Shown piece after piece: positions 3,727-37,971 of a stretch of 64,000 nt of DNA (its first letter is position 1; every line of letters starts with the position of its first letter). Source of the stretch: Terriglobia bacterium (GTDB lineage: Bacteria > Acidobacteriota > Terriglobia > JAIQFV01); NCBI GenBank assembly GCA_020072965.1, contig JAIQFY010000020.1:124001-188000 (forward strand), read 5' to 3'. The translations under genes were made by a program, and so were the position numbers. The notes under the pieces are model-generated. The model was not told the origin of the DNA, ran no database searches, and was given only the letters and a program-made list of their open reading frames with translations.

Positions 3727-6700
3727 GTGCGTCCCCGTCTATTTGTAAAGCTGCTGTGGTCTATCATTCTCGTCGTCATAGCCATCTTTATTAATCGCCA
3801 AGTTGAAGCCGCAGAACCAACGCATCCAAACTCCTCTGACAAGATTCTGCAATTCACATCGAGCGGGCATATTCTGGGTTTCGGCGCCGAAGGTGTTTAC
3901 GTGGCGAGCGGTTCGCATGCGCTGCGCGTTCAGTTCGTCAACGCTCGAAATAGTAATCCTGTTAGCAACGGGTCGTCGAATAGTGCTGTGCCGGGCGATA
4001 AGCAACACGCGACACCTCTGTCACAGGTCACGTACGCGAACCTCTGGGACGGTGTGACGCTGACCTACGACGCGCCCAGTGGCGCAGTCCTTCGCAGCTC
4101 TTATCGGATTGACGCCTTCGCCAGCCTGGAGAATGTTCGTCTGCGCTATAACGCTCCGGTCTCCGTCGAGAGCGACGGGTCGCTACGCATATCCTTCCAA
4201 GCCGGGGCAATGAATGAAAGCGCACCGCAAGCTTGGCAAGAGCGAGAGGGGAAGCGTGTGCCCACAATGATCGCCTTCTCGCAACGCGGAAAGGATGAGA
4301 TCGGCTTTGTAGTCGGCAAGTATGACCCCGGCAAGCCGCTGTTCATTGACCCAGCGCTCACTTGGAACACATTTCTCGGTGGCAGTGGGGAGGACTGGCT
4401 CTGTGGGGTGGCAGTGGATGGAAGCGGGAATGTCTACGTGGCGGGCAATAGCGATGCCAGTTGGGGTTCACCCGTACGCGCATACGGCGGTGGTATCTAT
4501 GACGCCTTTGCTGCCAAACTGGATCCCGGCGGGAACCTGATCTGGAACACTTTTCTCGGCGGCAGCGGGGACGACGAGGTCTATGGGCTGGCAGTGGATG
4601 GGAGCGGGAATGTCTATGTGGCAGGCTCCAGCACGGCGAGTTGGGGTTTACCCATCCGCGCCTATAACGCCGGCGACGGCCTTGATCCCCATAATGTCTA
4701 TGATGCCTTTGTTGTGAAACTGGATTCCAGCGGGAACCTGATCTGGAACACATTTCTCGGCGGCAGCAGTTTTGACGAAGCCCTTGGGGTAGCAGTGGAT
4801 GGGAGTGGAAATGTCTATGTGGCGGGCGATGGCTGGGGGAGTTGGGGTTCACCCCTCCGCGCCTACAGCAACAGCTTTGACGTCTTTGCTGCGAAACTGG
4901 GTTCCGGCGGGAACCTGATCTGGAACACGTTTCTCGGCGGCAGCGGGATAGACTATGGACTGGCCGTGGCAGTGGATGGAAGTGGAAGTGTCTACGTGGC
5001 GGGCGATAGTGCTGCAAGCTGGGGTTCACCCGTTCGCGATTACGGCGGTGGTAAGTATGACGCCTTTGCTGCGAAACTGAATTCCAGCGGGAACCTGATC
5101 TGGAACACATTTCTCGGCGGCAGCGGGGACGACCAAGCCCGGTGGAGGGTGGCAGTAGATGGGAGCGGAAATGTCTATGTGGCGGGCCTCAGCGATTCGA
5201 GCTGGGGTTCACCTGTCCGCCCCTACAGCGGCAACTATGACGCCTATGCTGCGAAACTGGACTCCGGCGGGAATCTGTTGTGGAGCACATTTCTTGGCGG
5301 TGGCGCGGCCGACTATGGCGAGGCCCTGGAAGTGGATGGGAGCGGAAATGTTTATGTGGCAGGAGTTAGTGAAGCGAACTGGGGTTCACCCCTCCGCGCT
5401 TACGGCGGTGGCAGGGACGCCTATGCTGCGAAACTGGACTCCAGCGGGAACCTGGTCTGGAACATATTTCTCGGCGGCAACGGGGACGACCAAGCCTATG
5501 GGCTGGCAGTAGATGGGAGCGGGAATGTCTATGTGGCAGGCTCCAGTTCTGCGAATTGGAGTTCACCCGTCCACGCCCATGGTGGTGGCATTGACGCCTT
5601 TGTCACCAAGATCTCCGACGTCCAGGTCGTTGCACCGCCAGCACCCTTGCCAGGCAATGGGGGGATTACACAGACGAGTCTGGGGCAGGGTTCGCTGTTG
5701 ACAGCATACGGTCAGATTACGACAACTGCGCCGACTCTACCCGTGGCGTTGGCAAATTTTGGATACACGCCGAATGGAATTCTGACAACCGAAGCGGGGG
5801 TGGCCGCTTCTGCGCCAACTACCGCCGCGCGGGTGTTTGTCGACTACAGCGCTGCCAAAGGGACCGACAGCGGCGTTGCCGTGGTCAATCCATCAAACAA
5901 CCCCATTACGTTGAACGTGCACATAAGAGATACACAGGGGAACTTCTATGGCTGTCCTGAGCAGACGGTCACTGCTAACGGGCACCTGGCGATGTTTGCG
6001 AGTCAATTGTGCCCCAGCATCTCCAATCTGTTTTTGGGGACGTTAACGCTGAGCTCCTCGACGGCGTTTGCCGCGACGAACCTGATGTTGGGGACCAATG
6101 CTCACGGCGAACCCTTGTACAACTCCCTGCCGGTTGCCATTCCGCCCGTGCCCCCCGCGGGCAACAATCTCTACTTCTCGCAGTTTGTAGACGGTGGAGG
6201 TTACAGCACAGCACTTCTGTTGATGAATCTCACCGGCACACCTATCAGTGGAACCGTGTCTTTCTGGGACGACAATGGACATGCCGTGACGCTCAATTTT
6301 GGCCCATCCATCGGCTCCAGGAGCACGCTTAATTACAGCATTCCCGGCAATGGGATGCTGAAGTTCACGACGACAGGATTAACGCCAGGGACATCGCTGC
6401 ATGTCGGATTCGTAGTGGTAACCTCGACCAGCGGAGCGCTTCCATCCGGGGCGGTCATTTTCTCTTCCTATAACGGAACGGGCGGCCTGGCGTCTCAAGC
6501 GGGTGTGCTGAATTCTCCGGTAACAAGCAATTCCCGGATGTACGTTGAGAAGTCCAACTCTCCTCTACCTCGCGACACCGGCGTGGCGATTGTGAACCCC
6601 AACAGCTCGGCGGCGACCTTGCAACTCAATTTGGTCAGCTTGGATGGATCGTTTACGGCCGTGAATACGATCACCCTTCCAGCCAACGCTCATTTATCTG

Positions 6701-9327
6701 CATTTGTCGGTCAATCAGCGCTCATGGGAGCGTCGGCCTCTTCCGTTCCTGCCAACTTCCAGGGGGTGTTGACGCTGAGCAGTAACCTACCCATCACCCC
6801 CGTGACCCTGAGGTTGACTACCAACCAACGCCGGGAAGATCTCTACTCAACGCTCCCCGTCGCAGACCTCAACAATCCTCCGACTGGGCCGCTGTACTTG
6901 CCCCAAATTGCCGATGGCGGCGGATATGCCACGCAAATCATTTTGGTCAACACCGGCAGCGGTTCAGGAAGCGTCACGATGAACTTCTTCAACGACATCG
7001 GGGGCAGTGTGCAAATTGCGACTACTGCTTCATCCGCGCAAACCATAATAGCGGCAAGAGGGGGCACTATTGCGCTGCCCAACGGCAGCAGCGTGACCAT
7101 TCCCCCCGGTGCGCTTACGTCTGACCAGGCACTGACCCTGTCCTTAGCGGCTGAGCTGCCCCAACAGCCCCCGAGTGGGTTTATCGTTGGTGTCGGGTAC
7201 GCCTTGGTGCTTTCAACCTCGACACCTCCTTTCAGAAGTTCTACCGGCAACATTGAATTTGTAATCAACGCCGGGACGAATACCAGCGGGCTTGAAGGAT
7301 CTGCAGGATTGGCAGACCTGATTGACAGCACGGGCGACAACTTCTTTGGTGTTACAGGAACGTTCGACGCGAGCACGAGTTTGGAGAGGATCACTGTTTC
7401 GGCGCTTCTAATGGACGGAACAAACAGGGTCGTGGTCAGCATGGGCAATTTATCGTCACCCTATGCCGGCAAAAGCGCCGCAGCGGTTGGAACAACGAGA
7501 AACATTCTCCCTCTCGCGACGGCCAATGTAGTGCCTCCGATACCTGGTAACCTAAGTTGGAACGGCTCGGCCTGGGGGCCATATTCCGGCTGCTCGGCCC
7601 CCCCGGGCACTAGGGTGCTTGTTCTTGTTCATGGGATATTAAGCTCGGTCGAAGACGCGTACGGAAACAACAGTGCAATGGTGACAGCACTCGACGGCAC
7701 CACCGATTTTTGTGTCAATCAGATTCAGAAAGCTGCAGGCAAAAACAGTTCAGGCGCACCCACGGTCTACGGCCAGGTGGTTGGGTTCGATTATGACTGG
7801 TCAAGCGACATTGGACTGAACAGCGGACCATCCTTTGCGAACTTCCTGAATACTCTAGCCCGATGCGGAAACGAAATAGATGTCCAGGCGCATAGTGCGG
7901 GAGGGCCGGTTGCTTCATATGGAATTATGCAGGCGGCCCAGGAAACTCGAAGTCTGATTAAGAATTTCGTTGGGCTCGGAAATCCTTGGACCGGAACTCA
8001 AGCCGCTTTTAACACGATCGAGTATCCGGGTTTCATGCCGCTTCTTACAGAGTTGGTGAATTTTAGAATTCCGTTTACCTCCATTTCCTTGGGATCCTCT
8101 GTGAGGATTCAAGGAAGAACAGTTCAGGATGTCCTGAATGCCCCATTTGTCCCTCAACTTGAGCCGTGGAGCCCGTTGTTATTATCCATTCAGCAGGATC
8201 TTGGCCAAAAGGCCCCCCAACTCAATATGGTGCTGGCGTGCGGGACTCAACCCCAGGGGCTCGGACTAAGATTTACGGAAGCAGTGGGTCATCTGTTCGG
8301 TACGGCAAACGACGGCATTGTTTCACTGGACAGCTGTCAAGGCGTAGGTCCGAGGGGAACAGGGAACGTGTTCACTGGTATCAATCCGCGCCCCTTACTG
8401 CCCTACTCTCTCAGCCATACTCAGCTTGCATGCGATCCGCACGTCATCGCTGACGTGGGGAGGGCCCTCCGGAATTCGCCGCCTGTGGGTCCATTTACTC
8501 TTTCGATTAGGAAAGCTGGTTCAGGGATTGGGACCGTGACCGCAGATCCACCAGGTCTTTCCTATAATCCCGGAACCATTTTGACTCTGACTGCCACTCC
8601 AGATGCGAATTCCGTCTTTGCCGTATGGTCGGGAGACTGTTCAGAGGCTGGGGCTTGTGTCCTCACAATGGACTCGGATAAGTCGGTGACTGCCACGTTC
8701 AACCTAAAGACGTCTTTCACTCTCACAATGGCAAAGGTCGGTTCAGGAAATGGCACTGTTATTGCAAATCCTCCCGGCCCTTCCTATGCTCCTGGAACCA
8801 TTGTGGCATTGACAGCCACTCCGGATGCGAATTCGACTTTCGCGGGGTGGAGTGGGGCGTGTTCGGGATCAGTCTCGTGCACGGTAACGATGAATCAGAA
8901 CCAGTCTGTGACGGCTACATTCAACTTAAAGACGCCGACTGAAACATGGGTCGGCAGCTATACCCTGAACTGGCATTTTTATCCAAGTTCAAATTGTTCG
9001 AATATGAGGCCTGGCTTCATCTTCAGCAATAGTGGAATCGTTACAATGGCGATTTCTAAGGACGCGGAGGGGAAATGGACTGGTACCGTGAGCATATCTG
9101 GTCTGCAGATGCCTGACGGGCGTGACAGCCCATGTACAAATGTTATATCTTTGCCGCTGTTACAAGGCGGTATAAACCCCCATGATTATTTAATCGTAGC
9201 GCAGTTCAACATTCCCGGTGGGGTGTTACAGCTCAACGGGCCACTTATCGACAATACGATCAGTGGAGGCATCGTTGCTGTTGGATATAGCGAAGCCGAG
9301 GGATCCTTTTCGGTGACCAAACAGTGA
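3727..9327 (+). CDS. Giant secreted protein: SBBP propeller, Ig-like modules, lipase-like alpha/beta hydrolase, InlB-type repeats
   Basis: Predicted 1,866-residue exported protein. Start GTG 3727 is preferred: it follows GAGGAGG by six bases and opens a signal peptide (RPR...K, hydrophobic LLWSIILVVIAIFI, then VEAA). About residues 213-632 hold seven SBBP propeller repeats with WNTFLGG, AVDGSGNVYVAG and AAKLD signatures. Residues about 660-1200 carry beta modules with DTGVAIVNP and PQIADGGGY motifs, then a ZU5-like stretch (LPNGSSVTIPPGALT). From about 1299 comes an alpha/beta hydrolase core: LVLVHGI, nucleophile motif AHSAGG (Ser about 1390), NDGIVSLDS and a later SHTQ His, as in secreted lipases. 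Two divergent InlB-type repeats (ends SVTATFN) span about 1590-1735, followed by a C-terminal beta domain. I infer a secreted or surface ester hydrolase/adhesin; the substrate is unknown. It is the main cargo of the tRNA-bounded segment. Confidence 0.85.
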   Translation: MRPRLFVKLLWSIILVVIAIFINRQVEAAEPTHPNSSDKILQFTSSGHILGFGAEGVYVASGSHALRVQFVNARNSNPVSNGSSNSAVPGDKQHATPLSQVTYANLWDGVTLTYDAPSGAVLRSSYRIDAFASLENVRLRYNAPVSVESDGSLRISFQAGAMNESAPQAWQEREGKRVPTMIAFSQRGKDEIGFVVGKYDPGKPLFIDPALTWNTFLGGSGEDWLCGVAVDGSGNVYVAGNSDASWGSPVRAYGGGIYDAFAAKLDPGGNLIWNTFLGGSGDDEVYGLAVDGSGNVYVAGSSTASWGLPIRAYNAGDGLDPHNVYDAFVVKLDSSGNLIWNTFLGGSSFDEALGVAVDGSGNVYVAGDGWGSWGSPLRAYSNSFDVFAAKLGSGGNLIWNTFLGGSGIDYGLAVAVDGSGSVYVAGDSAASWGSPVRDYGGGKYDAFAAKLNSSGNLIWNTFLGGSGDDQARWRVAVDGSGNVYVAGLSDSSWGSPVRPYSGNYDAYAAKLDSGGNLLWSTFLGGGAADYGEALEVDGSGNVYVAGVSEANWGSPLRAYGGGRDAYAAKLDSSGNLVWNIFLGGNGDDQAYGLAVDGSGNVYVAGSSSANWSSPVHAHGGGIDAFVTKISDVQVVAPPAPLPGNGGITQTSLGQGSLLTAYGQITTTAPTLPVALANFGYTPNGILTTEAGVAASAPTTAARVFVDYSAAKGTDSGVAVVNPSNNPITLNVHIRDTQGNFYGCPEQTVTANGHLAMFASQLCPSISNLFLGTLTLSSSTAFAATNLMLGTNAHGEPLYNSLPVAIPPVPPAGNNLYFSQFVDGGGYSTALLLMNLTGTPISGTVSFWDDNGHAVTLNFGPSIGSRSTLNYSIPGNGMLKFTTTGLTPGTSLHVGFVVVTSTSGALPSGAVIFSSYNGTGGLASQAGVLNSPVTSNSRMYVEKSNSPLPRDTGVAIVNPNSSAATLQLNLVSLDGSFTAVNTITLPANAHLSAFVGQSALMGASASSVPANFQGVLTLSSNLPITPVTLRLTTNQRREDLYSTLPVADLNNPPTGPLYLPQIADGGGYATQIILVNTGSGSGSVTMNFFNDIGGSVQIATTASSAQTIIAARGGTIALPNGSSVTIPPGALTSDQALTLSLAAELPQQPPSGFIVGVGYALVLSTSTPPFRSSTGNIEFVINAGTNTSGLEGSAGLADLIDSTGDNFFGVTGTFDASTSLERITVSALLMDGTNRVVVSMGNLSSPYAGKSAAAVGTTRNILPLATANVVPPIPGNLSWNGSAWGPYSGCSAPPGTRVLVLVHGILSSVEDAYGNNSAMVTALDGTTDFCVNQIQKAAGKNSSGAPTVYGQVVGFDYDWSSDIGLNSGPSFANFLNTLARCGNEIDVQAHSAGGPVASYGIMQAAQETRSLIKNFVGLGNPWTGTQAAFNTIEYPGFMPLLTELVNFRIPFTSISLGSSVRIQGRTVQDVLNAPFVPQLEPWSPLLLSIQQDLGQKAPQLNMVLACGTQPQGLGLRFTEAVGHLFGTANDGIVSLDSCQGVGPRGTGNVFTGINPRPLLPYSLSHTQLACDPHVIADVGRALRNSPPVGPFTLSIRKAGSGIGTVTADPPGLSYNPGTILTLTATPDANSVFAVWSGDCSEAGACVLTMDSDKSVTATFNLKTSFTLTMAKVGSGNGTVIANPPGPSYAPGTIVALTATPDANSTFAGWSGACSGSVSCTVTMNQNQSVTATFNLKTPTETWVGSYTLNWHFYPSSNCSNMRPGFIFSNSGIVTMAISKDAEGKWTGTVSISGLQMPDGRDSPCTNVISLPLLQGGINPHDYLIVAQFNIPGGVLQLNGPLIDNTISGGIVAVGYSEAEGSFSVTKQ
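4363..5620 (+). repeat. Seven tandem SBBP-coding repeats, period about 177-201 bp
   Basis: Units begin with the tggaacacatttctcgg-type stretch at about 4363, 4543, 4744, 4921, 5101, 5281 and 5458, giving spacings of 180, 201, 177, 180, 180 and 177 bp. The units are very similar at DNA level, which suggests recent expansion or gene conversion. Each encodes one blade-like repeat of the propeller. Confidence 0.88.
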
Positions 9328-10205: not shown

Positions 10206-10254
10206 TTTGGTAGCGGCGTGTGGACTCGAACCACAGACCTAGGGATTATGAGAC
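10206..10254 (-). repeat. tRNA-proximal att-like repeat
   Basis: This is the copy of the 49-bp direct repeat that lies inside the intact tRNA gene, covering tRNA positions 30-76 plus two bases beyond the CCA. It is identical to 2881-2929. The intact gene at this end would be the one restored by the incoming element. Confidence 0.85.
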
Positions 10255-10283
10255 CCTCGCTCTACCACCTGAGCTACGCCGCC
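10208..10283 (-). tRNA. tRNA with CAU anticodon (elongator Met likely; Ile2 possible)
   Basis: A 76-nt cloverleaf with CCA encoded. Read on the minus strand: acceptor GGCGGCG pairing with CGCCGCT (one G-T), D-arm GCTC/GAGC, anticodon stem AGGGT/TCCCT with loop CTCATAA, five-base variable loop AGGTC, T-arm TGTGG/CCACA with TTCGAGT, discriminator A. The 31-39 pair is a U-U mismatch. The CAU loop is shared by elongator tRNA-Met and lysidine-modified tRNA-Ile2, which I cannot separate with certainty. It is the apparent attachment site of the adjoining island. Confidence 0.93.
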
Positions 10284-25356: not shown

Positions 25357-27345
25357 GTGAACGATAAAGCTATGGCTGCGGCCGCCGCGCGCCGCATCAA
25401 CTTGTTTCTTATCAAGCCTTCGAATTATGATGACGATGGGTACGTTGTCACGCATTTTCGCGGGGTTCTGCCTTCCAACACGCTGAGCTGTCTGGCGGCG
25501 CTCACCGAGGATGTCCTCAAGAGAAAGACGCTTGGAGAAGGGCTCGATATTCGCCTGCATCTCCTTGATGAGACTGTCCAAAAAATCCCCGTCAAGAAAA
25601 TCTGTCGCACCGCCAGGCGGTCCAATTCACAGACCATTGTGTGCCTGGTGGGTGTGCAGTCCAATCAATTCCCGCGGGCGTCCGATTTGGCGCGCCAGTT
25701 TCGGGCTGGGAACTGCACGGTCCTGATCGGCGGGTTTCACGTCAGCGGATACCTTGCCATGCTGCCCCAGATTCCACCGGAAATTCAGGAACTGATGGAC
25801 GCCGGGGTTTCAATTGTCAAGGGTGAAGTGGAAGAGACCTGGACGGGGATCCTGAAAGATGCGATCGAGGGGAAGCTGAAGCCGCTGTACGATTTTGTCG
25901 ACGACAAACCGGATCTCTACGACAAGCCCATCCCGCTGATTGACACGAAGCTGCTGAAGCGGTTTATGGCCTCGAATTTTGGAACCATTGATTGCGGACG
26001 TGGCTGTCCCTTCAATTGCAGCTTCTGCACCATTATCAACGTCCAGGGTCGCAAGATGCGCGTGCGCTCCGCCGAGTGCATTGCCACCGCCATCCGTGAA
26101 AACTGGCACCGTAGCAAGGTGGATTTTTATTTCTTTACCGACGACAATTTTGCCCGCAATCTCCAATGGGAAAAGATCTTTGATGCCTTAATCGACTTAC
26201 GTGAGAAGGAAAAGATCGACTTGCGCTTCATGATGCAAGTGGACGTGCTCTCCTACAAGATCAAGAACTTCGTTGAGAAGGCGCGCCGGGCCGGTTGCAC
26301 CCAGGTGTTCATCGGCATGGAATCGATTAACCCCGAAAGCCTAAAAGATGCCGCCAAGGCGCAAAATCAGGCCGCTGATTATGGTAATTTGATCCAGGCA
26401 TGGCACGACGTTGAAATTGCCACGCATGTCGGCTACATCCTGGGATTTCCACACGATTCGCCGGAGTCCGTGCGGCAGGACTTGCAACGGCTGATGCATG
26501 AAATCAAGGTGGAGCAGGCGTCATTTTTCCTCCTCACCCCCCTGCCGGGATCGCGCGATCACCTGGAGATGACCCAGCGCGGCGAATACATGGACAGCGA
26601 CTACAACAAGTTTGATTCCATCCACGAGACCATGCAGTATCCCCATTTTCCCGCGCCGGGCTCGCTCAAAGCGATGTACTTCGAAGCGTGGGAGACCTTT
26701 TACAGTTTTGATAACATGAAGCGCATCCTGTTGCGGTCGTCGCCGAGAAATTACTGGAATATCCTGCGGAACTTCATCTGGTACAAGAACGCGGCTTTAA
26801 TTGAACGGCGTCATCCCATGATGGGCGGATTTTTCCGGCGCAAAAGACGCCAGACGATCCGTCCCGGTTATCCGGTGCCCTCGCGGTGGGCATTTTACAG
26901 GATGCGAGTGCGCGAGATTCGCGCTTATCTTACGGCCATGGTCAAGTTGATCCTGGAGATGGAGGAGTTGTGGCTCCAGACCCGTATCCGCAGCGAGTCG
27001 GAACAGCGCGTCGTCGAGGAGCTAAGCCGTTTGCGGGCTTCGGCACGGCGTCGGTTGAGCGTGGCTGAAATCCAGCTGGCCCACGCCCGGGCACGGATTC
27101 AAGTGCCTACCATCCGGGTCCCGTCAAAGGTCACCTTGTACTGGCAGAGCTGGCACCTCTGGCTGGCCAGCCGCAAGGTGTATACGCGCGCCGACATTGA
27201 TGAGTGCTGGCAGTCGGTATTGCAGAATCTTCGGCAGAGACGAATCCTCCGGATCTCACCGTTCCGGGTAATCACGAACATGTGGCTTGATTTTCAAGTC
27301 ACCCTGATGTTTGCCTTCGCGATTTTAAGGGCGCGGGAAGAGTGA
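25357..27345 (+). CDS. B12-binding-type radical SAM protein with long C-terminal extension
   Basis: Radical SAM enzyme of the cobalamin-binding-domain class. Seen: an N-terminal Rossmann-like domain (about 12-170) with VLIGGFHVSGYL in the corrin-site region but no clear DxHxxG, so B12 binding is uncertain. The SAM cluster motif is CPFNCSFC (Cys217, 221, 224). Then comes a TIM-barrel half (FFTDDNFARN, VFIGMESINPESL, GYILGFPHDSPESV) and a helical region after about 430. Residues 560-662 form a basic helical extension I do not recognise. Start GTG 25357 is supported by AGAGG six bases upstream. The DNA from 27031 on is duplicated at 35241. The product is unknown; class members methylate or rearrange lipids, tetrapyrroles and natural products. 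Confidence 0.85.
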   Translation: MNDKAMAAAAARRINLFLIKPSNYDDDGYVVTHFRGVLPSNTLSCLAALTEDVLKRKTLGEGLDIRLHLLDETVQKIPVKKICRTARRSNSQTIVCLVGVQSNQFPRASDLARQFRAGNCTVLIGGFHVSGYLAMLPQIPPEIQELMDAGVSIVKGEVEETWTGILKDAIEGKLKPLYDFVDDKPDLYDKPIPLIDTKLLKRFMASNFGTIDCGRGCPFNCSFCTIINVQGRKMRVRSAECIATAIRENWHRSKVDFYFFTDDNFARNLQWEKIFDALIDLREKEKIDLRFMMQVDVLSYKIKNFVEKARRAGCTQVFIGMESINPESLKDAAKAQNQAADYGNLIQAWHDVEIATHVGYILGFPHDSPESVRQDLQRLMHEIKVEQASFFLLTPLPGSRDHLEMTQRGEYMDSDYNKFDSIHETMQYPHFPAPGSLKAMYFEAWETFYSFDNMKRILLRSSPRNYWNILRNFIWYKNAALIERRHPMMGGFFRRKRRQTIRPGYPVPSRWAFYRMRVREIRAYLTAMVKLILEMEELWLQTRIRSESEQRVVEELSRLRASARRRLSVAEIQLAHARARIQVPTIRVPSKVTLYWQSWHLWLASRKVYTRADIDECWQSVLQNLRQRRILRISPFRVITNMWLDFQVTLMFAFAILRAREE

Positions 27346-27349
27346 GTTT

Positions 27350-27375
27350 GTAGTAACGACTTCAGTCGTTACTAC
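27350..27375. repeat. Palindrome between convergent genes (copy A)
   Basis: Perfect inverted repeat GTAGTAACGACT-tc-AGTCGTTACTAC with 12-bp arms, four bases after the radical SAM stop. A partial second hairpin (gaacgactgaagtcgt) lies at about 27393-27410. It may act as a bidirectional terminator or belong to a dispersed REP-like family, since a close relative lies at 35556. Confidence 0.8.
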
Positions 27376-27425
27376 AAGCCCCATCGTCCTCAAGAACGAC
27401 TGAAGTCGTCACTACGACGAGACGC

Positions 27426-27857: not shown

Positions 27858-27884
27858 GAGAGTCTCCGTTGACCTTGAACCGAG

Positions 27885-29090
27885 CTATCGCACCCTGACC
27901 AACAACTCGTAGTACGAACCGCGGGTGCTGGTTCCGTTCGTACTTCCGTGTTCGATAATGTAAGTTCCCGTGGTCGGGACGACAAATCGGACAAAGGGAT
28001 CCCTCAGGCCAGTGGAAAAGTCATCATTCTCGGCAAGCGTCGTCCCGGCCGAATTCTTGATCTCGATGACATCGTCGAGGGGCGAGCCGATCATATCCGC
28101 GACCGCCAAAACATACAGGGTCTGTCCTGCTTGCAGGCTCATTGAAAAATTATCTGCATCGGCCGATCCGTTGGGGGCGATCATCGTTCCGATGATTCTC
28201 GCCGGAAGGGTGATGGGCTGGGCGGAGCCGACGGAGTCGTTCTCCTCGCGGTCGTAGAAGATATTGTATCCAAGGGTTGCATCGGGGTTGACAGCGACGG
28301 TCGAAAAAGTGTCTCCCGTGGGGCCGGAAATATCGCGTAGCGCCACGATGGCGACATTCACGTTGCTCGAGAACCGGACCGTGCCGTGGAACAGCGCGGG
28401 GAAGGTAGTGTCCGGAAAGATTTGATTCAGAAACAAGGCCGTCTGATGGTTGGAGCTAACACTGAAGAGCTTCTGGTTGATCTGGGTGCCCGTGCGGTTG
28501 AGTAAGGTCGCCGTAATGTCCGTGTCGGCGCCGCTGAAATTGGCGATGGCAATGCCCGTGTTGGTATTGGTCCCTGTCTCTGGAAAGTTGGTGGCGACGT
28601 CGGCGTCAAAGGAAAAAAGGGTCGCTCCCGTGCTGGGGAGAACCCCGGCTTCCGCGGTGACGAGGATTGGAAGGCGACTGGTATTCAGAACGTCAAAGAC
28701 CTCGGAGACCTCGAGGGGAGCAGTCGAGGTAATCTTGCACCATCCCACAGTGAGCGCCGCGACCGCCCCCGTAAAGAAATGAGCCGTTTCGCCCGCCTGA
28801 AGGGTGAAGGTCGTTGACGAGAGAGTGCCCGCCGCATCGGCCCGGTCAAAACTTCGGAAGTCGACGACAAAGGGGGTTCCGTTCGAACGCGTGAAAGTCA
28901 TGGTAATCGTGTTGGGAGTGGAGAGCGCGTTGTTCAGGAAGAACTGGCTGGCGAAGGCCGTGCCTCCGCTAACGCCGTCGGCCACTTGGGGAAAGAAGTA
29001 GACGGACCCTTGGGCCCACAGGGACGATCCCCAAACAGCCAATACAAAGAACGCCAAAATACCGATCTTCGAGGTGCGCCTGACAAACAT
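27885..29090 (-). CDS. Secreted PPC-domain protein, paralogue A
   Basis: 401-residue exported protein of unknown role. Seen: a signal peptide (VRRTSKIGILAFFVLAVWGSSLWAQ), then a beta-rich region beginning YFFPQVADG, a second module with NTGIAIANFSG, and a C-terminal PPC (pre-peptidase C-terminal) domain from about 280. The PPC part shows ENDSVGSAQPI, ADADNFSMSLQAGQTLYV and GTYIIEHGS. PPC domains usually accompany secreted hydrolases, but no catalytic domain is present here. The two upstream modules also occur in the giant protein at 3727. A paralogue of equal length lies at 35752. A purine-rich AAAGGAG precedes the ATG. Confidence 0.88.
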   Translation of the reverse strand: MFVRRTSKIGILAFFVLAVWGSSLWAQGSVYFFPQVADGVSGGTAFASQFFLNNALSTPNTITMTFTRSNGTPFVVDFRSFDRADAAGTLSSTTFTLQAGETAHFFTGAVAALTVGWCKITSTAPLEVSEVFDVLNTSRLPILVTAEAGVLPSTGATLFSFDADVATNFPETGTNTNTGIAIANFSGADTDITATLLNRTGTQINQKLFSVSSNHQTALFLNQIFPDTTFPALFHGTVRFSSNVNVAIVALRDISGPTGDTFSTVAVNPDATLGYNIFYDREENDSVGSAQPITLPARIIGTMIAPNGSADADNFSMSLQAGQTLYVLAVADMIGSPLDDVIEIKNSAGTTLAENDDFSTGLRDPFVRFVVPTTGTYIIEHGSTNGTSTRGSYYELLVRVR

Positions 29091-29460
29091 GGTTTTCTCC
29101 TTTGGGTGATGCTACGGCCTGGCCGGCGTAGCGTCAGTAGGAATGATTAATTGTCGAAGAGTCTAAGGGGCAGAGGACTCGTTAAAAAGTTCCGGCGGCG
29201 GAAATCGGACCAAGAGCTCAGGAAGAACATTCTTCAAATCGCTCTTGACCGAGGGAAGCCCCCCCCCTCTGAATGGCTTCCCCCCATGGGGACCATGAAG
29301 TCCTCCGGGGTCAAAATCGTATTGAGACCAGAGCTTAACGCATCTTGGGGGGTCACATCAATCTATTTGACACTTTGAGGAAACGAGCATCAGGTGAATT
29401 TCGATCGAGAGGAGAGTGAGGATTCACGGTAGACAGGAACGGAAGCGAGGATTTGCAGGC
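29091..29460. other. Upstream region of PPC paralogue A
   Basis: No gene. It is homologous to 36958-37265 upstream of paralogue B. The blocks conserved between both copies (for example tcaatctatttgac near 29357 and 37220) are candidate shared control sequences. Confidence 0.55.
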
Positions 29461-32205
29461 TCAATTGAGTTGATTCATCTTGTTGCGAACCGCCTCCGCA
29501 TATTTGGAACTCGGCAGAATCTCCAGGTACTTTTCGAACGCGCTTTTCGCCTCAATCTTGCGTTCCATTTTAAGGTAGGTGTCGCCCAGATTGGCGTAAG
29601 CGATGGCGCGCCGGGGGTCGAGGGCAATGGCCTTTTCAAACCAGCTGGCGGCTTCCTTGAATTGTTCCAGTTTGTAATACATGTATCCGACGTTATTGGC
29701 GGCCAGCGCATTGGAGGGGTCCAATTTGGTTGCCGCCATGAACTCCTGGAGGGCGTCCTGATATTTCTTTTCTTTGAAGAGTGCCATTCCGCGGTCGTTG
29801 TGAGTTCTGGAATTCTCCGAAGGAGAAGACGCGCGCGAGACATTCCGCCCCCCATTGAGCTTTGCCAGGGTCAATTGTGCGGCGGCGAGGTCCTTCTTCA
29901 ACTGCCGGTTGCGCGAGCTTTTGTCGGCAATCTCCTTGCGAACGCGATCGAGTTCCGAGTTGATTTGAATAGACTCTTCGTTCAGCTGGGTTGAAAGTTC
30001 ACTCAGGAATTCATTCTCATGCTTGAGCTCAAATACAACCTCGCCGCCCTCGCTCCCCGGCAGATTTCCAAAGGCGGGGGTCTGATGCGATAGCGACGAA
30101 ACGATCGGCCCGACATAAGCTGCCAACTCGGATGCGGTGATGAATCCATCCCCATTCAAATCCGCCCGTCCCTCGAGGCCCTGCATGAGCGTCCAGGTGA
30201 ACACTGAGTGGCCGTTGGGGCCATTGTCGGCAACCTGCTGGTCGGCGCCGCCGGCCGTCAACATCTGGCGCGCGAGACGCCGTCCCATTTCCTTAAGGAA
30301 GTTCTCGGTCGACGCCGGTGCGGCTCCCATTCCGCGGGTGAGCGCGAGACCGCTGTAACAGGAATCCATGACGAAGAAAATGTGCTTGGCCGGAATTGCT
30401 TCGGAAATATCCTGAAAATTGGTCATCGAGATGGACTGGCCCTGGTAGCTCTGAACATCGGCCTCCATCGGGACGATATACCCCAGGTTGCGTCCATTCG
30501 GCAATTTCCGCGTGATGCCGTGTCCTGCAAAGAAAACGACGACCCGGTCATCGCGTTTCACCTTGTCCGGATTCGCCATCGTATCGCCGAGCACCGAAAG
30601 GATTCGTTCGCGCGTCGCCTCGCCGTTCAACAAGGTCACTATGTTCTCTGGTTTGAACCGGTATTTCCGGGTCAGGATTTCCTTGATCCCGTTGGCGTCA
30701 TTGACCGCGTAACGGAGCTTGGGCCAATTCTGGTAATCATCAATCCCGATAATTACGGCCCAGCTTTCCCTGTAAAGATTGGGCACTGGAACTGTTTCCT
30801 GCTCAACCCTCTTCTCGGTCGTGGCATCTTCGACGAAACCTTTTCCGTCCCAGGAGAGAAACCGGTAGCCTTCTTTCTTCAACGTTTCCAGGACATCGGG
30901 AAGTGCCTCGATGGTGCGCCCGTGAATGTCATGAAACAAAATGATGCCGCGGCCTTCCGCATCCACCTGACGGATGACCCGATTGGCAATCGATTTCGGG
31001 ATGGGGTCGGCCCAATCCTTCGAATCAATGTTCCACAGCACTTCCTTCATCTTTCGGGATTCCACGGCGGCCAGGACCTTCTCCGTTTCAGCGCCATAGG
31101 GGGGCCGGAAGAGGGTCGGCGAGGCGTGCGAAACCTCCTGGAGCAGACGGCTGGTGGACTCGATCTCCTCGGCGACCTCCTTGTCGCTCAATTTGGAGAG
31201 CATGGCATGCGAGTAGGTGTGATTGGCAAGGGAGGATCCCGACTCCAGGACGTGCCGGCTGGCTGTGGCCGCGCGGGTCTGTTGAATCGAGTGATTGGGA
31301 CGAATCGTGCCGAGGTTGCGCCCTACCTCGAAAAAAACGGAATGGACGCCGTACTTCTTCAGAATGTCGAGCACCTGATCGGTATATCGGGGGTGCGGGC
31401 CGTCGTCAAAGGTCAGGACGAGAGTCTTGGGCGGTAGATTGCGGCCGAAGACCTCAAGCTTGCTGTCGCGCTTCATTGGGCCGCGCTGGCGGGATTCTGT
31501 AATCGAGCGTGTCGCTTCGTCGTATTCTTTCAGTATTGCATCGCGGTTAAAACGGGTCTTTAGAAAGGCGACATATTTTTCCCATGCCTCCCGCCGCACG
31601 GCGAGACCGCGGGTTTCAAATCGCGCGAAGATTTTTTCCAGTTCCTTGTCGTAGAGCGATTGGATTTCACGGAGGCTTTGGAGATCACCTTCTACTCTGG
31701 CCTGCAGCTTTTCCTTGCCCGCTTGCTGGGCCTTGCTCTCGCGCAGAGCCTGGTTCAGGTCCTCGAGGACGTCACGAAAGACCAGCTTGTCAGCGTCGTG
31801 AAGATCGGTATTGGCTTCCAGTTGACCAAGGAACTTCTCGCAGGTTGGAGGTTGCACAGCGAACTGAGAAGCACCCGCATTTCGAATTTCCTCAGTCAGT
31901 TGATCGGAGAGCTTGGAGAGGCGCTCGTGGTTTTCCTGGAAAAGGATCTTGCCCACGACGGAAACACGTGCCTCCTGGGTCTCATCGACAGCGGACTCGT
32001 CCTCCATCAGAACGATCAGCTTGCGATAGGCCCTCACCATCTCGGACAGGTCTCTTTGAAAGGCATCCTCCGCGGTGGGAGCCGGCTGAGATTTTTGAAG
32101 GGCGACAGGCTTTGAGGACTTGGACCTCCACATCCACACCCCAATGAGAATGAGGATGACGGCGAGGCTGGCGGAAAGAATGATGATTTTTTTAGGGGTC
32201 AACAT
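29461..32205 (-). CDS. Membrane-anchored polysaccharide deacetylase-caspase-EF-hand-TPR fusion
   Basis: A 914-residue multidomain protein. Seen in order: N-terminal membrane anchor (7-25); coiled coil (about 45-240); NodB-type deacetylase (258-450) with TFDDGP (Asp267/268), NHTYSH (His329, His333), RPPYG (367-371) and HDIHG. A caspase/C14 domain (480-680) follows with VVVFFAGHG (His562) and VMDSCYSG (Cys616), so the catalytic dyad is intact. Then come an EF-hand loop DLNGDGFITASE (682-693), a second coiled coil (730-785) and TPR repeats (803-905). By family knowledge the first enzyme removes N-acetyl groups from a polysaccharide and the second cleaves after basic or acidic residues, perhaps under Ca2+ control. 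Fusing both on one anchored chain is unusual. It is divergent from the TPR-kinase gene, suggesting a signalling link. The start ATG 32205 is supported by the membrane anchor. Confidence 0.9.
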   Translation of the reverse strand: MLTPKKIIILSASLAVILILIGVWMWRSKSSKPVALQKSQPAPTAEDAFQRDLSEMVRAYRKLIVLMEDESAVDETQEARVSVVGKILFQENHERLSKLSDQLTEEIRNAGASQFAVQPPTCEKFLGQLEANTDLHDADKLVFRDVLEDLNQALRESKAQQAGKEKLQARVEGDLQSLREIQSLYDKELEKIFARFETRGLAVRREAWEKYVAFLKTRFNRDAILKEYDEATRSITESRQRGPMKRDSKLEVFGRNLPPKTLVLTFDDGPHPRYTDQVLDILKKYGVHSVFFEVGRNLGTIRPNHSIQQTRAATASRHVLESGSSLANHTYSHAMLSKLSDKEVAEEIESTSRLLQEVSHASPTLFRPPYGAETEKVLAAVESRKMKEVLWNIDSKDWADPIPKSIANRVIRQVDAEGRGIILFHDIHGRTIEALPDVLETLKKEGYRFLSWDGKGFVEDATTEKRVEQETVPVPNLYRESWAVIIGIDDYQNWPKLRYAVNDANGIKEILTRKYRFKPENIVTLLNGEATRERILSVLGDTMANPDKVKRDDRVVVFFAGHGITRKLPNGRNLGYIVPMEADVQSYQGQSISMTNFQDISEAIPAKHIFFVMDSCYSGLALTRGMGAAPASTENFLKEMGRRLARQMLTAGGADQQVADNGPNGHSVFTWTLMQGLEGRADLNGDGFITASELAAYVGPIVSSLSHQTPAFGNLPGSEGGEVVFELKHENEFLSELSTQLNEESIQINSELDRVRKEIADKSSRNRQLKKDLAAAQLTLAKLNGGRNVSRASSPSENSRTHNDRGMALFKEKKYQDALQEFMAATKLDPSNALAANNVGYMYYKLEQFKEAASWFEKAIALDPRRAIAYANLGDTYLKMERKIEAKSAFEKYLEILPSSKYAEAVRNKMNQLN

Positions 32206-32522
32206 GTTTTCGGATGACAGGGATATCTTGCGGCCATCCTTTTAAGTAGGTTATCACTGGCTGTCAAAAAACTCTACAGAAAGCTCGTGAGTGGGGAGTT
32301 GGCACTTCAAATTCGTTTGACCCCCTGAAACTGAAAGATTACCCTTCTCAGACGAGGTTGCTGCCGCAAGGCGAAGGCGACGGCCGAAGCGCAGCAGCCG
32401 TGCGATTCCTGAGTCGGTCTGGCCAGGTTGTTCGCGCTTAAGTGATTCTACTACCGGAACCGGATGAATCCCCTTCGAGAGTCTTGGGCAGATCGATCTG
32501 GAAGACCTGCGAGAGTGACACG
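32206..32522. other. Divergent control region between the caspase fusion and the TPR kinase
   Basis: 317 bp without a gene. Both promoters must lie here. I could not assign clear -35/-10 pairs. Confidence 0.5.
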
Positions 32523-35105
32523 ATGAACGAGGACGATCAATCCCGACCCGTGGTCGGGCAGCGGATTGGCCCTTACAAGGTGGTGCACGAAATCGGACGC
32601 GGGGGCATGGGCGCCGTTTACCTCGCCGCCCGGGTGGACGAGCAATTTGAACAGCGCGTGGCCATCAAGTTGATCAAGCGGGGGATGGATACCGACGAGA
32701 TCATCCGCCGTTTTCGAAACGAGCGGCAGATCCTGGCCAACCTCAGGCATCCCAACATTGCCACTCTACTTGATGGGGGAACCACAGAAGATGGCCAGCC
32801 TTACTTCGCCATGGATTATGTCGAGGGCGTCCCAATTGATCAATACTGCGATCAACACAAGCTTGCCATCAGGAATCGGCTCAACCTCTTCCGGACAATC
32901 TGCTCTGCCGTACAGTTTGCTCACCAGAGGCTTGTCGTCCATCGCGACATCAAACCCGGCAACATCATAGTTACACCGGAGGGAATTCCCATCCTGCTCG
33001 ATTTTGGCATCGCCAAACTGCTGCAAGCGGAGGTTTCTCAGGAAACCATGACCGGGCAGAGACCGATGACGCCGGAGTGCGCCAGTCCGGAACAGGTGCG
33101 CGGCGAGCCCATCACCACCGCCAGCGACATTTATTCGCTGGGCATCCTGCTTTACAAGTTGCTCACCGGGCACCCGCCGTACCGGTTCACCAGTGGGCTT
33201 CCCCATGAAATCATTCAGGTCATCTGTACTCAGGATCCGGAGAAACCCAGCACGGCGATCAGTCGCCCCGTTCAGGTGCCTGGTGTCAGCGCTGATGCTC
33301 TCGTCACCCTGACCCCCGAGGCGGTCAGTAACAACCGCAACGATGAGCCAGAGAAGCTTCGTCGCCTCCTTTCAGGAGACTTGGATACCATCGTCCTGAA
33401 AGCGATGCAGAAGGACCCGCGGCGGCGATATGAATCCGTCGATCAGTTTTCCGAAGATCTCCGGCGTTTTCTGGAAGGCCTGCCGGTCATCGCGCAGAGC
33501 GACACGGTGGCGTATCGCACTGCCAAGTTCATACGAAGGCACAAGGCGGGGGTGGCGGCGGCGGCGCTGATTGCAGTAGCGCTTGTGGGCGGATTGGTGG
33601 CTACAAGCTGGGAGGCGCACATCGCCGAGAGGGAACGGGCTCGTGCCGTGAGACGCTTTGAACAGGTTCGCCAGCTTGCCAAATCTTTCATGTTCGAGAT
33701 TCAAGATGCCATCGCCAACCTTCCGGGATCGACTCCAGCCCGCAATCTGCTGGTCAAGAAAGCCATGGAATACCTCGACAGCCTGTCCCGGGAAGCGGGC
33801 AATGATCCCGCTTTGCAGAGTGAGCTGGCTACGGCCTACCAGAAGATGGCTGATGTCCAGGGAAATCCTTTCTACGCCAACCTGGGCGACTCTCCAGGTG
33901 CCCTCTCGAGTTATCACAAAGCGCTGGCGATTCGAGAGCGCCTGGCTTCCGGCGATCCGAAAAATGCAAATGTTCGTCGCGATCTGGCGACGACGTACGA
34001 TTCGGTGGGAGACATGTTGTGGGCGACCGGCGAACTGGCCGGGGCGTTGGACAACTACCGCAAGTCACTGGAGGTCCGGAAGGGGTTGCTCAAAGATTCG
34101 ATCGAGGCCGAGGCACGCCACGATCTGGCCCTGAGCTACGAGAGGATTGGCGACACGCTGGCGAAGAAGGGAGATTTCAACGCCGCGCTGGAGAGCCACC
34201 GCGATGCCCTGGCGATTCGCGAGGCGCTCTCAAATCAAGATCCCCAAAATGCCAGCGCGCGCCGGGAGATTTCGATCAGCTATGGGAAGGTGGGGGACAT
34301 GCTTGCCCTCACCGGAAATTCCACCGTGGCACTGGAAAATCATCGCAAAGCGCTTGCCCTCCGTGAAGAATTAGTTGCCCGGGATCCGGGCAATACCAGG
34401 GCGCGTCGTGAACTGGCACTGGGTTACATAAATGTCGGAGAATTGCTCTCAGAGACAGGGAACAGGAATGGTGCACTTGAACACTATCGAAAGGCGATGA
34501 AGATTCGAGAAGACCTGGCTTCGGCCGATCCCACCAATGTCCAGGCGAGCCGGGATCTGGCCATCATTTATGGCACCATCGGGGAGGCGCTTTCAGCGAC
34601 CGGGGACAAGAGTGGTGCGGTCGATCACGGACTGAAATCCCTGGAGATATTCAAAGCGATGTCGGCGCGCGATCCAACCAACCGCGGGGCTCGAGAGGAT
34701 CTCGCCATCTGTTATGGCAGCCTGGCTGAAATCATGGAAGGGATCAACAATGCGGAAAGCGCTCTGCGGAATTATCGCAATGCCGTTTCGATTCTAGAGC
34801 TGCTCGTCGTGTCTGATCCGATGAACACGGCCACCGAACGCCGGCTGGGGCTCTATTATTCCTACTTGGGGGCGCTCGATGCAAAGCAGGCGGGCGTGCT
34901 GTCCATTCCGGCGAATAAGAAGGTGGAGCTGTGGCAGCAGGCCCGCGAGTGGTATCAGAAGAGCCTGAATGCGTTTCGCGACATTCAGAAGCATGGAGTC
35001 CTTACCGGAGTTGAACCCCTCAAGGCCGACCAGATGGCGGCGGAGATCACCCGATGCGATGAGGCCCTGGCGAATTTGCGGGGCACTGGTGGAACTTCAC
35101 GGTAG
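32523..35105 (+). CDS. Membrane Ser/Thr protein kinase with C-terminal TPR array
   Basis: PknB-type kinase of 860 residues. Seen: glycine loop GRGGMG (about 25-30), Lys49 in VAIKLIK, HRDIKPGNI (His140, Asp142) and DFGIAKLL. A long kinase C-lobe insert precedes the end of the domain at about 330. A transmembrane helix GVAAAALIAVALVGGLVA (about 342-362) leads to a probably periplasmic region with at least seven TPR-like repeats of the form ALENHRKALALREELVARDP. I chose ATG 32523 (MNEDDQSRP) over an upstream GTG because kinase N-termini begin shortly before IGPYKV. TPRs imply protein partners. Divergently paired with the caspase fusion, which also ends in TPRs. Confidence 0.93.
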   Translation: MNEDDQSRPVVGQRIGPYKVVHEIGRGGMGAVYLAARVDEQFEQRVAIKLIKRGMDTDEIIRRFRNERQILANLRHPNIATLLDGGTTEDGQPYFAMDYVEGVPIDQYCDQHKLAIRNRLNLFRTICSAVQFAHQRLVVHRDIKPGNIIVTPEGIPILLDFGIAKLLQAEVSQETMTGQRPMTPECASPEQVRGEPITTASDIYSLGILLYKLLTGHPPYRFTSGLPHEIIQVICTQDPEKPSTAISRPVQVPGVSADALVTLTPEAVSNNRNDEPEKLRRLLSGDLDTIVLKAMQKDPRRRYESVDQFSEDLRRFLEGLPVIAQSDTVAYRTAKFIRRHKAGVAAAALIAVALVGGLVATSWEAHIAERERARAVRRFEQVRQLAKSFMFEIQDAIANLPGSTPARNLLVKKAMEYLDSLSREAGNDPALQSELATAYQKMADVQGNPFYANLGDSPGALSSYHKALAIRERLASGDPKNANVRRDLATTYDSVGDMLWATGELAGALDNYRKSLEVRKGLLKDSIEAEARHDLALSYERIGDTLAKKGDFNAALESHRDALAIREALSNQDPQNASARREISISYGKVGDMLALTGNSTVALENHRKALALREELVARDPGNTRARRELALGYINVGELLSETGNRNGALEHYRKAMKIREDLASADPTNVQASRDLAIIYGTIGEALSATGDKSGAVDHGLKSLEIFKAMSARDPTNRGAREDLAICYGSLAEIMEGINNAESALRNYRNAVSILELLVVSDPMNTATERRLGLYYSYLGALDAKQAGVLSIPANKKVELWQQAREWYQKSLNAFRDIQKHGVLTGVEPLKADQMAAEITRCDEALANLRGTGGTSR

Positions 35106-35240: not shown

Positions 35241-35554
35241 TTGCGGGCCTCCGCTCGCGGTCGCCTGAGTCTAGCTGAAATCCAGCTGGCTCACGCCCGG
35301 GCGTGGATTCACGTGCCCACCGTCCGGGTCCCGTCAAAGGTCACGCTGTATTGGCGGAATTGGAATCTCTGGCTGGCCAGCTCCAAGGTGTACACGCGTG
35401 CTGCCATTGATAAATGCTGGCAGTCGGTGGCGCGGAATCTTCGTCACAGGCCAATACTCGGATCTCACCGTTGCAGTTGTTATTCAATATGTGGCTTGAT
35501 TTTCAAGTCAACCTGATGTTCGCCTTTGCGATTCTAAGGGCGCGGGAAGATTGA
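35241..35554 (+). pseudogene. Fragment of the B12-type radical SAM gene tail
   Basis: Diverged duplicate of 27031-27345. The first ~75 codons match the extension of the radical SAM protein (LSLAEIQLAHARAWI, TVRVPSKVTLYW, WLASSKVYTRAAIDKCWQSV). A frameshift near 35460 then separates the reading frame from the matching end (WLDFQVNLMFAFAILRARED, stop at 35552-35554). No start codon or catalytic part is present, so it cannot encode a working enzyme. Confidence 0.88.
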
Positions 35555-35555
35555 G

Positions 35556-35587
35556 TTCGTAGTAACGACTTGAGTCGTTACTACGAA
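35556..35587. repeat. Palindrome after the gene fragment (copy B)
   Basis: Perfect inverted repeat with 15-bp arms, TTCGTAGTAACGACT and AGTCGTTACTACGAA, around a TG loop. The corresponding element at 27350 has 12-bp arms and a TC loop. The stem is better preserved than the gene fragment next to it, which hints at selection or conversion. Confidence 0.82.
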
Positions 35588-35751
35588 CCCGCTTCCCTAC
35601 TACGAGCAGGTCGCTACCCTCGAATCGGGAAGTGCACCCTTTAACAACACATAAATAGAGGTAGGAGCACAATGCCCGCCGGGAATCTGGTCCAGGCGGA
35701 TCGTCCATCCCGTAGCACCAACCGCGTCTCCGGTGAACCGGTATCGTCGAA

Positions 35752-36957
35752 CTAGCGCGCCCTGACCAACAACTCGTAATAGGAGCCGCGGCTGCTGGTC
35801 CCATTTGTACTTCCATGCTCGATAATGTACGTCCCCGTGGTCGGGACGACGAATCGGACAAACGGGTCCCTGAGTCCCGTGGAAAAGTCATCATTCTCGG
35901 CCAGGATTGTTCCTGAAGAGTTTTTGATCTCGATGACGTCATCGAGGGGAGAGCCAATGATATCCGCGGCCGCGAAGACATACAAGGTCTGCCCTGCCGT
36001 CAGGCTCACTGAGAAGTTATCTTCATCTGCACCTCCATTCGGTGCAGTCATGGTGCCTATGATTCTGGCCGGCAAGGTGATCGGCTGTGCGGAACCGACG
36101 GAGTCATTGTCTTCGCGGTCGTAAGAAATGTTGTATCCGAGTGTGGAGTCAGGGTTCACAGCCAGCGTTGAAAAAGTGTCTCCCGCAGGACCGGCAACGT
36201 CGCGTAGGGCCACAATGGCAACATTCACGTTGCTCGAGAACCGGACCGTACCGTGAAATATCCCCGTGAAGGTGGTATCGGGAAAGATCTGATTCAGAAA
36301 CAGGGCGGTCTGCTGCTTGGAGCCTACATTAACGATTTTTTGGTTGATCTGTCCGCCCATCCGGTCCAGCAGCGTCGCCGTGATGACCGCGTCGGAGCCG
36401 CTGAAATTGGCTATTGCAATACCTGTATTGGTGTTCGTTCCAGTGTCAGGAAAGCCGGTGGCCACGTCGCCGTCGAATGAAAAAAGCGTCGCGCCCGTGC
36501 TTGGCAATACGCCGGCTTCCGCTGTGACGACAATCGGTGTTCCGCTGATCCGCAGGACGTCAAAGACCTCGGAGACCTCCAAGGGAGCAGTTGAGTTAAC
36601 CTTGCACCATCCCACGGTGAGCGGATCGAATGCCCCAGTGAAGAAATGCTCCGATTCACCGGCCTGAAGGGTGAAGGTGGTTGACGAGAGGTTGCCCTCG
36701 GCATCTGGCCGGTCGAAACTTCGGAGATTAACCACAAAGGGGGTTCCATTTGATTTCGTAAAGGTCATAGTGACCGTGTTTGGAATGCTGAGGGTGTTGT
36801 TCAGGAAAAAAAAGCTGGAAAATGCCTTGCTCCCGGTGACCCCGTCGGCCACCTGGGGAAAGAAATACACAGACCCTTGCGCCCATAGCGAGGATCCTCC
36901 CACGGCCAATATGAAAAACCCCAGAATAATGATCTTCGAGGTATGCCTGAAAAACAT
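35752..36957 (-). CDS. Secreted PPC-domain protein, paralogue B
   Basis: Second copy of the protein at 27885, also 401 residues when started at ATG 36957, where AAGGAGG sits six to seven bases upstream. An earlier ATG at 36987 is unlikely. Signal peptide FRHTSKIIILGFFILAVGGSSLWAQ, YFFPQVADG module, NTGIAIANFSG module and C-terminal PPC domain are all intact, with mostly conservative differences from paralogue A. Preservation of the full frame suggests that both paralogues are used. Function unknown; probably extracellular or periplasmic and structural or binding. Confidence 0.88.
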   Translation of the reverse strand: MFFRHTSKIIILGFFILAVGGSSLWAQGSVYFFPQVADGVTGSKAFSSFFFLNNTLSIPNTVTMTFTKSNGTPFVVNLRSFDRPDAEGNLSSTTFTLQAGESEHFFTGAFDPLTVGWCKVNSTAPLEVSEVFDVLRISGTPIVVTAEAGVLPSTGATLFSFDGDVATGFPDTGTNTNTGIAIANFSGSDAVITATLLDRMGGQINQKIVNVGSKQQTALFLNQIFPDTTFTGIFHGTVRFSSNVNVAIVALRDVAGPAGDTFSTLAVNPDSTLGYNISYDREDNDSVGSAQPITLPARIIGTMTAPNGGADEDNFSVSLTAGQTLYVFAAADIIGSPLDDVIEIKNSSGTILAENDDFSTGLRDPFVRFVVPTTGTYIIEHGSTNGTSSRGSYYELLVRAR

Positions 36958-37971
36958 GGTTTCCTCCTTTTGGAGACGCGACGCCACGCCGGCGCAGCGT
37001 CAGTGGGATTGGTTAAGTGCCGAGAGTCTGGGGGCAGAGAACTTAAAAGAAAGTCCCGAGGGTGACTGGAATCGAAGCAAGCGTCATGGATGAACATTCT
37101 CCAGATCGTTCTTGACGGATGAGAGATCCCTCTCTGAAACGTTCCTTCCCCTCGGCGACCATCAGGCCCAATGATTGACCCTTTGCTGAGAGCGAAGCTT
37201 AGCGCATCTGCCCTGAGGGGTTCAATCTATTTGACGAAGGTGTCGCCGATGAAATTTCGCGGGTGTGGGCAAAACATGATAGCAGTGAAAAAACAGGGGT
37301 CGCATCTCCACTATCCACTTTTCCCTCGCCTGTGGCTGGACTGTTGCGGATTTAATCGGCGGGGGATTGGTATTCCATGACCTCTTCAGGTGAATCAATT
37401 GAAAATGGCAATCTCCGCTTAAGATGAATGATACAAAGGGACGGGGTGGCGCATACCCCAATCTATCGGGGTGCGCGGCGAAAAATCGATGTGCTTTCTT
37501 GCGTACTTGCGGGGGCACTCTCAGAGAAGGCCGCCCACGGCGGTGGGTCAAGAGCGTGTGCGTGCCACCCCACCCAGATGTCCGGGTCTGGCCCCCGATT
37601 GCTGAGAAACCGATCAGGCGAATAAATACCACCGACGGCAGTCGGTGGTATATTCAGGTCCAACCTACAGCCGGGACGGAACGACCGTTAGAATCCCGCC
37701 AGCGGGAGCTGGCGGATTGTTCAGATGCAGCCCTCCTTTTACAGGAGATGGGCGATGTTCGAAAGATTCATCGAGCGCGGTCGATGGAAATATCGATGGG
37801 CCGTCGGTTTTTTCTTAGGCCGCATCTGAACGATCCCCCGACTGCCGTCGGGGGAATTACTTGGTGCTCTGGGGAGTGGGGTTGTAGGTTGAAATTGAAT
37901 AATCCCCTGACTGCCGTCAGGGGGATTTGAAAGGCTTGAGCGGGTGGACCCCGCGGAATTTTGGCTCTTTT
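36958..37971. other. Long intergenic region with hairpins
   Basis: About 1 kb without a gene. Up to about 37265 it is the duplicated upstream region of PPC paralogue B. From 37440 on it contains the REP-like hairpins listed separately. Open frames crossing the hairpins show repeat-driven low complexity and are not credible genes. Confidence 0.55.
37449..37927. repeat. Cluster of REP-like hairpins
   Basis: Five inverted repeats in under 500 bp: 37449-37478 (GCGCATACCCC/GGGGTGCGC), 37626-37651 (ATACCACCGAC-ggca-GTCGGTGGTAT), 37692-37718 (CCGCCAGC-ggga-GCTGGCGG), 37834-37855 (TCCCCCGAC-tgcc-GTCGGGGGA) and 37904-37923 (CCCCTGAC-tgcc-GTCAGGGG). Three share a GAC-[ggca or tgcc]-GTC core, one in the opposite orientation to the other two, as in bacterial interspersed mosaic elements. 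No RAYT transposase is in the window. Confidence 0.78.

Follow-up and report, generated by a model that had tools for sequence, protein, structure and literature searches.

The gene at positions 29461 to 32205 (- strand) of the window, the whole 64,000-nucleotide stretch of Terriglobia DNA analyzed here, encodes a 914-aa protein of 102.9 kDa, whose full-length homology places it in the known Xanthomonas-type family of deacetylase-caspase-TPR proteins. Our favored reading, which we hold at a probability of roughly 55%, is that the protein is a cell-wall deacetylase anchored in the envelope and coupled to a self-processing protease of Arg/Lys specificity, whose partners are brought in by the TPRs. 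The fusion and its intact motifs can be seen directly in the sequence; we infer export, substrate, specificity, self-cleavage, and a role for Ca2+.

Domain architecture, relatives, and family membership

The reading frame is uninterrupted from the ATG through all 914 codons. Along the chain, an N-terminal anchor is followed by a helical domain of ~200 aa, a CE4/NodB deacetylase, a Peptidase_C14 domain, a coiled coil, and TPRs. Pfam searches recover Polysacc_deac_1 (1.3e-29, aa 256-387), Peptidase_C14 (5.1e-18, aa 482-710), and, toward the C-terminus, three TPR stretches (best 3.5e-19). The open frame and the order of these matches bear out the initial annotation, which had placed deacetylase, caspase, and TPR modules on one anchored chain, and every motif that it quoted is present (FDDGP/NHTYSH/HDIHG in the deacetylase, GHG/DSCYSG in the caspase). 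An AF2 model of the whole chain (mean pLDDT 74.5) shows weak domain packing (pTM 0.37) and interdomain linkers of low confidence.

Full-length relatives, 38-91% identical to the window protein, occur in several Acidobacteriota families, two delta-type MAGs, and Gammaproteobacteria. A genome of the same genus carries a full-length copy with 91% identity, and other families of the phylum stand at 43-57% in our alignment of 14 full-length sequences (A1), with an Acidobacteria MAG (L030) at 57%. Further full-length carriers include a Syntrophorhabdus MAG, a Deltaproteobacteria MAG, three Reinekea species, and two more gammaproteobacterial genomes. A search for the same architecture, which had been proposed as a check, thereby recovered the fusion end to end in independent genomes, and these full-length relatives rule out an assembly-fusion artifact. 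Among 396 sampled genomes of the phylum, about 7 (counting that of the window) gave long full matches, as did 3 of 369 from the gammaproteobacterial class; the distribution of the fusion is patchy but genuine. In genome G004, the copy of the fusion gene is seemingly broken or misassembled.

The combination was catalogued by Asplund-Samuelsson et al. in 2012 under the name "Xanthomonas-type metacaspases," which the accessible portion of that paper describes as proteins of 97-100 kDa with a deacetylase, a caspase, and 1-3 TPRs (PMC3501461). Its set comprises 17 proteins, all 17 with an intact dyad, from Xanthomonas, Xylella, Stenotrophomonas, and the Acidobacteria Solibacter and Koribacter, so the coupling that had been regarded as unusual was already on record, two Acidobacteria included. 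The window protein shares the domain order, size, and His/Cys dyad of this family: PF01522 precedes C14 and 1-3 TPRs on a single chain, and the dyad is conserved in 14/14 aligned sequences. Shared descent with the trmE-operon proteins is indicated by homology to two relatives, L101 and L102 (97.6-97.7 kDa), each of which is 43% identical to the window protein along its length, the N-terminal domain included, and falls with it into one group in both domain trees. In both of these relatives, an mnmE/trmE-like gene follows the fusion, the two copies being 76% identical and the L101 copy matching Pfam TrmE_N at 4.9e-39; the upstream genes of L101, as read from their translations, are yidC and rnpA. 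This gene order, rnpA-yidC-X-mnmE in L101, suggests that L101 and L102 come from Xanthomonadaceae. As far as the 2012 paper is accessible, a conserved trmE operon is reported for Xanthomonas, Xylella, and Stenotrophomonas, but not for the two Acidobacteria (PMC3501461). Because of this, we do not treat the context as defining, and the window gene, unlike the published operon, has no trmE beside it. The same portion of the paper contains no discussion that we could find of the N-terminal domain, the EF-hand-like loop, or export.

The deacetylase half and its probable envelope setting

The CE4/NodB domain (30847..31440, - strand; aa about 256-453) has all five motifs, MT1-MT5, with the metal ligands D, H, and H; motifs 3-5 take the form RPPYGA, DSKDW, and ILFHD. 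Its ligand and base residues (D267, D268, H329, H333, R367, D394/W398, and H425/D426) are invariant in A1 (n=14), as is the caspase dyad His562/Cys616 (14/14). Both catalytic centers, described earlier as intact-looking, hold up across the aligned relatives, none of which shows inactivation at these sites. PdaC (6h8l) is the best structural match of the CE4 domain, and PgdA is also among the matches. These proteins share the CE4 fold and all five motifs with the window deacetylase, whereas the latter is fused to a caspase and TPRs and its peptidoglycan substrate is putative. By sequence, the CE4 domain is nearest in the PDB to Caldanaerobacter entries that carry the names xylanase/chitin deacetylase and acetylxylan esterase, and for this reason the substrate could be a polysaccharide other than peptidoglycan. 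We favor the cell wall because of the PdaC and PgdA structural matches, a 3D-domain gene at the L031 locus, and a GH25 neighbor in L106; given its family and context, the CE4 domain would most likely strip N-acetyl groups from peptidoglycan.

The setting of this activity is suggested by the N-terminus. The hydrophobic anchor (32122..32196, - strand; aa 4-28), recognized from hydropathy and a modeled helix over the same residues, is the sole TM-like segment of the protein. Each relative likewise has one N-terminal hydrophobic segment, and in every one it can be read as an export or anchor signal. L101 and L102 have a lipobox-like GGC/AGC where the window protein has a membrane anchor, and the three Reinekea proteins (L031-L033) and L106 have signal-peptide-like N-termini. 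Because such a segment is found in every relative, whether anchor, lipobox-like, or signal-like, we strongly infer that the window protein is exported and that its N-terminal anchor keeps it in the cell envelope, in agreement with the membrane anchor and envelope location proposed initially.

Between the anchor and the deacetylase lies a family-specific helical domain (31486..32073, - strand; aa about 45-240), which is the least understood part of the protein. It is modeled as a helical bundle (pLDDT 81.6, pTM 0.78). Comparison with PDB folds gave no match with E below 0.001, or even below 0.2, and searches of Pfam and PDB sequences gave no trustworthy match. Across samples of 347 and 321 genomes, it was seen only ahead of this deacetylase, bar one weak partial match.

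The caspase domain and its EF-hand-like loop

The Peptidase_C14 domain with its p10-like part occupies 30025..30774 (- strand; aa about 478-727), the His562 and Cys616 codons lying at 30520-30522 and 30358-30360 (- strand). In common with type I/II metacaspases (CgMCA-I, AtMC4), it has a caspase fold and an Asp two residues before the catalytic Cys. Since this residue, Asp614, matches S1-pocket Asp137 of AtMC4 (an equivalence by motif position), a basic P1 residue is expected, and a C14 protease with Arg/Lys specificity is probable. Orthocaspases such as MaOC1 share the bacterial C14 domain, the His/Cys dyad, and the expected basic P1; however, they are described as lacking a p10 (PMC5756287), whereas the window protein possesses an EF loop within a p10-like half.

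The p20/p10 linker (618-643) is of low confidence in the model and holds an invariant Arg624. The protease would most likely process itself at this disordered loop near Arg624 or in the deacetylase-caspase linker; a cut at the latter would yield two computed halves of about 50 kDa. A Xanthomonas caspase enzyme has been reported at 55 kDa versus about 100 kDa predicted, which fits cleavage in the deacetylase-caspase linker without proving it. Basic linker residues, however, are poorly conserved. The protease may also, or instead, cut partners brought by the TPR array (29470..29823, - strand; aa 795-912, from Pfam and the structure model), which follows a long helix that is a probable coiled coil in the AF2 model (29857..30003, - strand; aa 735-783). 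Wall modification and proteolysis would thereby be controlled together.

An account that we consider improbable makes the protein an executioner of programmed cell death or autolysis, in which a stress-activated caspase would cut itself or envelope proteins while the deacetylase weakens or remodels the wall, and the cell lyses. It sits poorly with the apparent export of the protein and with the fact that deacetylation commonly guards peptidoglycan against lysozyme. In its favor, a deacetylase/caspase gene of X. campestris pv. glycines has been tied to programmed cell death by cross-reaction with caspase and PARP antibodies, according to the accessible portion of the 2012 paper (PMC3501461), and caspase-3-like (DEVD) activity is reported in dying Xanthomonas cells (PMC4006831). 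The S1-pocket Asp, however, predicts Arg/Lys rather than DEVD specificity, and the open papers searched yielded no mutant of this gene, and no deletion of it linked to death. Of the envelope-stress or cell-death pathway first suggested for the protein, the envelope location stands; the connection to cell death is at best indirect (antibody cross-reaction and homology of a Xanthomonas relative, in what is accessible of PMC3501461).

The EF-hand-like loop, DLNGDGFITASE (30127..30162, - strand; aa 682-693), had been described as following the caspase, but it is internal to that domain: the C14 region matched by Pfam (482-710) includes the loop, and the final caspase strands (711-714 and 724-726 in the AF2 model) come after it. 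In the model, this 12-residue loop connects helices 668-680 and 691-705 and has a short strand at 688-690. Oxygen-bearing residues are kept at positions 1, 3, 5, and 12 in all aligned sequences, and Gly6 is lost in four. The Pfam match (EF-hand_5, E 0.0015, aa 681-695) is weak and falls under its curated cut-off. Of 38 other C14 stretches, in a sample skewed toward relatives of the query, 15 were counted by eye as having this loop at the equivalent place. Its position within the caspase fold and its recurrence in other C14 proteins led us to reject an add-on module in favor of an internal element that recurs among bacterial C14 domains. The window's own genome encodes a second C14 protein (L125, G000:C85:33486-34142), which also has an EF-like loop at the same domain position.

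Calcium-triggered proteolysis as in metacaspases, which the loop had brought to mind, is not supported, because metacaspases bind Ca2+ at a different site, formed by p20 residues such as Asp198, Asp214, and Asp245 of CgMCA-I (PMC9622860), which are not conserved here. In a weak alignment (E 0.0025), Asp198 falls in an insertion and D214 and D245 are replaced by Ser/Thr, and a metacaspase-type site was rejected on this basis. A role for Ca2+ is possible, but would not follow the metacaspase mechanism; the probable function of the loop is to hold a structural Ca2+ within the p10-like half. It is doubtful that the loop instead acts as a sensor of extracytoplasmic Ca2+ that turns the caspase on or off. 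The retention of ligands 1, 3, 5, and 12 throughout the family and the modeled helix-loop-strand-helix geometry are consistent with such gating, but the loop is also present in unrelated C14 proteins, the EF-hand is single and unpaired, the metacaspase Ca2+ site is absent, and a tested orthocaspase processes itself without further activation. Moreover, free Ca2+ levels outside the cytoplasm are generally sufficient to keep such a loop constantly loaded. More speculative still is an envelope checkpoint, in which the N-terminal domain would sense the state of the wall or membrane, and the Ca2+-loaded, p10-like EF-hand would set a self-cleaving protease that frees or silences the peptidoglycan deacetylase.

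Gene neighborhood, descent, and implications

The divergent neighbor (32442..35105, + strand) encodes a Ser/Thr kinase whose kinase domain precedes a TM segment (aa 369-387) that separates it from TPRs. A functional link between the two proteins, raised by the initial annotation, finds no support. Adjacency of the kinase to the fusion gene is limited to the window's own genus, in which the entire region is collinear. The catalytic half of the kinase probably faces the cytoplasm, so that the membrane would separate it from the putatively exported fusion protein and preclude direct contact. Among the scanned neighbors of relatives outside the genus, there is no Ser/Thr kinase; these encode VIT/VWA, TrmE, sortilin/BNR-repeat, GH25, Cas1-Cas4, aldo-keto reductase, histidine kinase, and 3D-domain proteins. 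We rejected the partnership on account of this single-genus, collinear adjacency. The GH25 gene adjoins the fusion in L106. In the three Reinekea species, a small gene with a signal-like N-terminus precedes it (L031 5339-5893, L032 5121-5657, and L033 5104-5631), the L031 copy matching the 3D domain at E 4.9e-6. With an anti-phage caspase effector within a defense locus in mind, a PADLOC scan of five neighboring proteins returned a generic caspase match (1.1e-13 over 130/453 positions) and generic PD-T4-6-type kinase matches.

Several other features of these regions were noted. The caspase and kinase genes of the window are flanked by repeated segments, the 3' end of a radical SAM gene and a PPC-like protein, such that 27031-27381 and 27881-29296 recur at 35241-35590 and 35748-37162 with 78-83% identity; the same-genus genome G001 has one copy only. 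Overlapping direct self-matches (75-83%) at 4363-5602, within an 1880-aa ORF (3685-9327), suggest internal repeats, and a tRNA gene at 10211-10283 (- strand) is the sole Rfam match in the window at gathering cut-offs. In one genus (L080-L088, L108, and L109), the fused or stand-alone gene sits immediately beside a gene whose translation, judged by eye, resembles valyl-tRNA synthetase, and in G427 fused and stand-alone genes stand in tandem.

These stand-alone genes, seen in one genus, retain the N-terminal domain and a CE4 domain with intact motifs. In quick trees made without bootstraps and, for the deacetylases, with other CE4 domains as the outgroup, fused and stand-alone deacetylases group together, the stand-alone copies nesting among the fused ones, and the C14 domains of the fusions fall into a single clade (support 93). 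This nesting led us to reject the stand-alone deacetylase as the ancestral form. The simplest reading is that a single fusion would have later spread between phyla, and was once duplicated with loss of the caspase-TPR half. The persistence of these copies without the caspase speaks against an obligatory coupling and indicates that the protease is not always needed. Along with the low-confidence linkers, it would accord with the unlikely view that the caspase half serves mainly as a scaffold or processing module through which the deacetylase is matured and targeted, and has no further protein substrate. However, His562 and Cys616 are strictly invariant and the TPR array is kept in all full-length relatives, which suggests that catalysis and partners matter.

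The Xanthomonas-type fusion thus emerges as an old, patchily spread family of several Acidobacteriota families, Gammaproteobacteria, and delta-type MAGs, for which the stand-alone deacetylases offer a natural caspase-free comparison. The data support placing this fusion, with its conserved, unclassified N-terminal domain, in the envelope; a cell-death role in Xanthomonas, if claimed, should accordingly be viewed as an envelope process.
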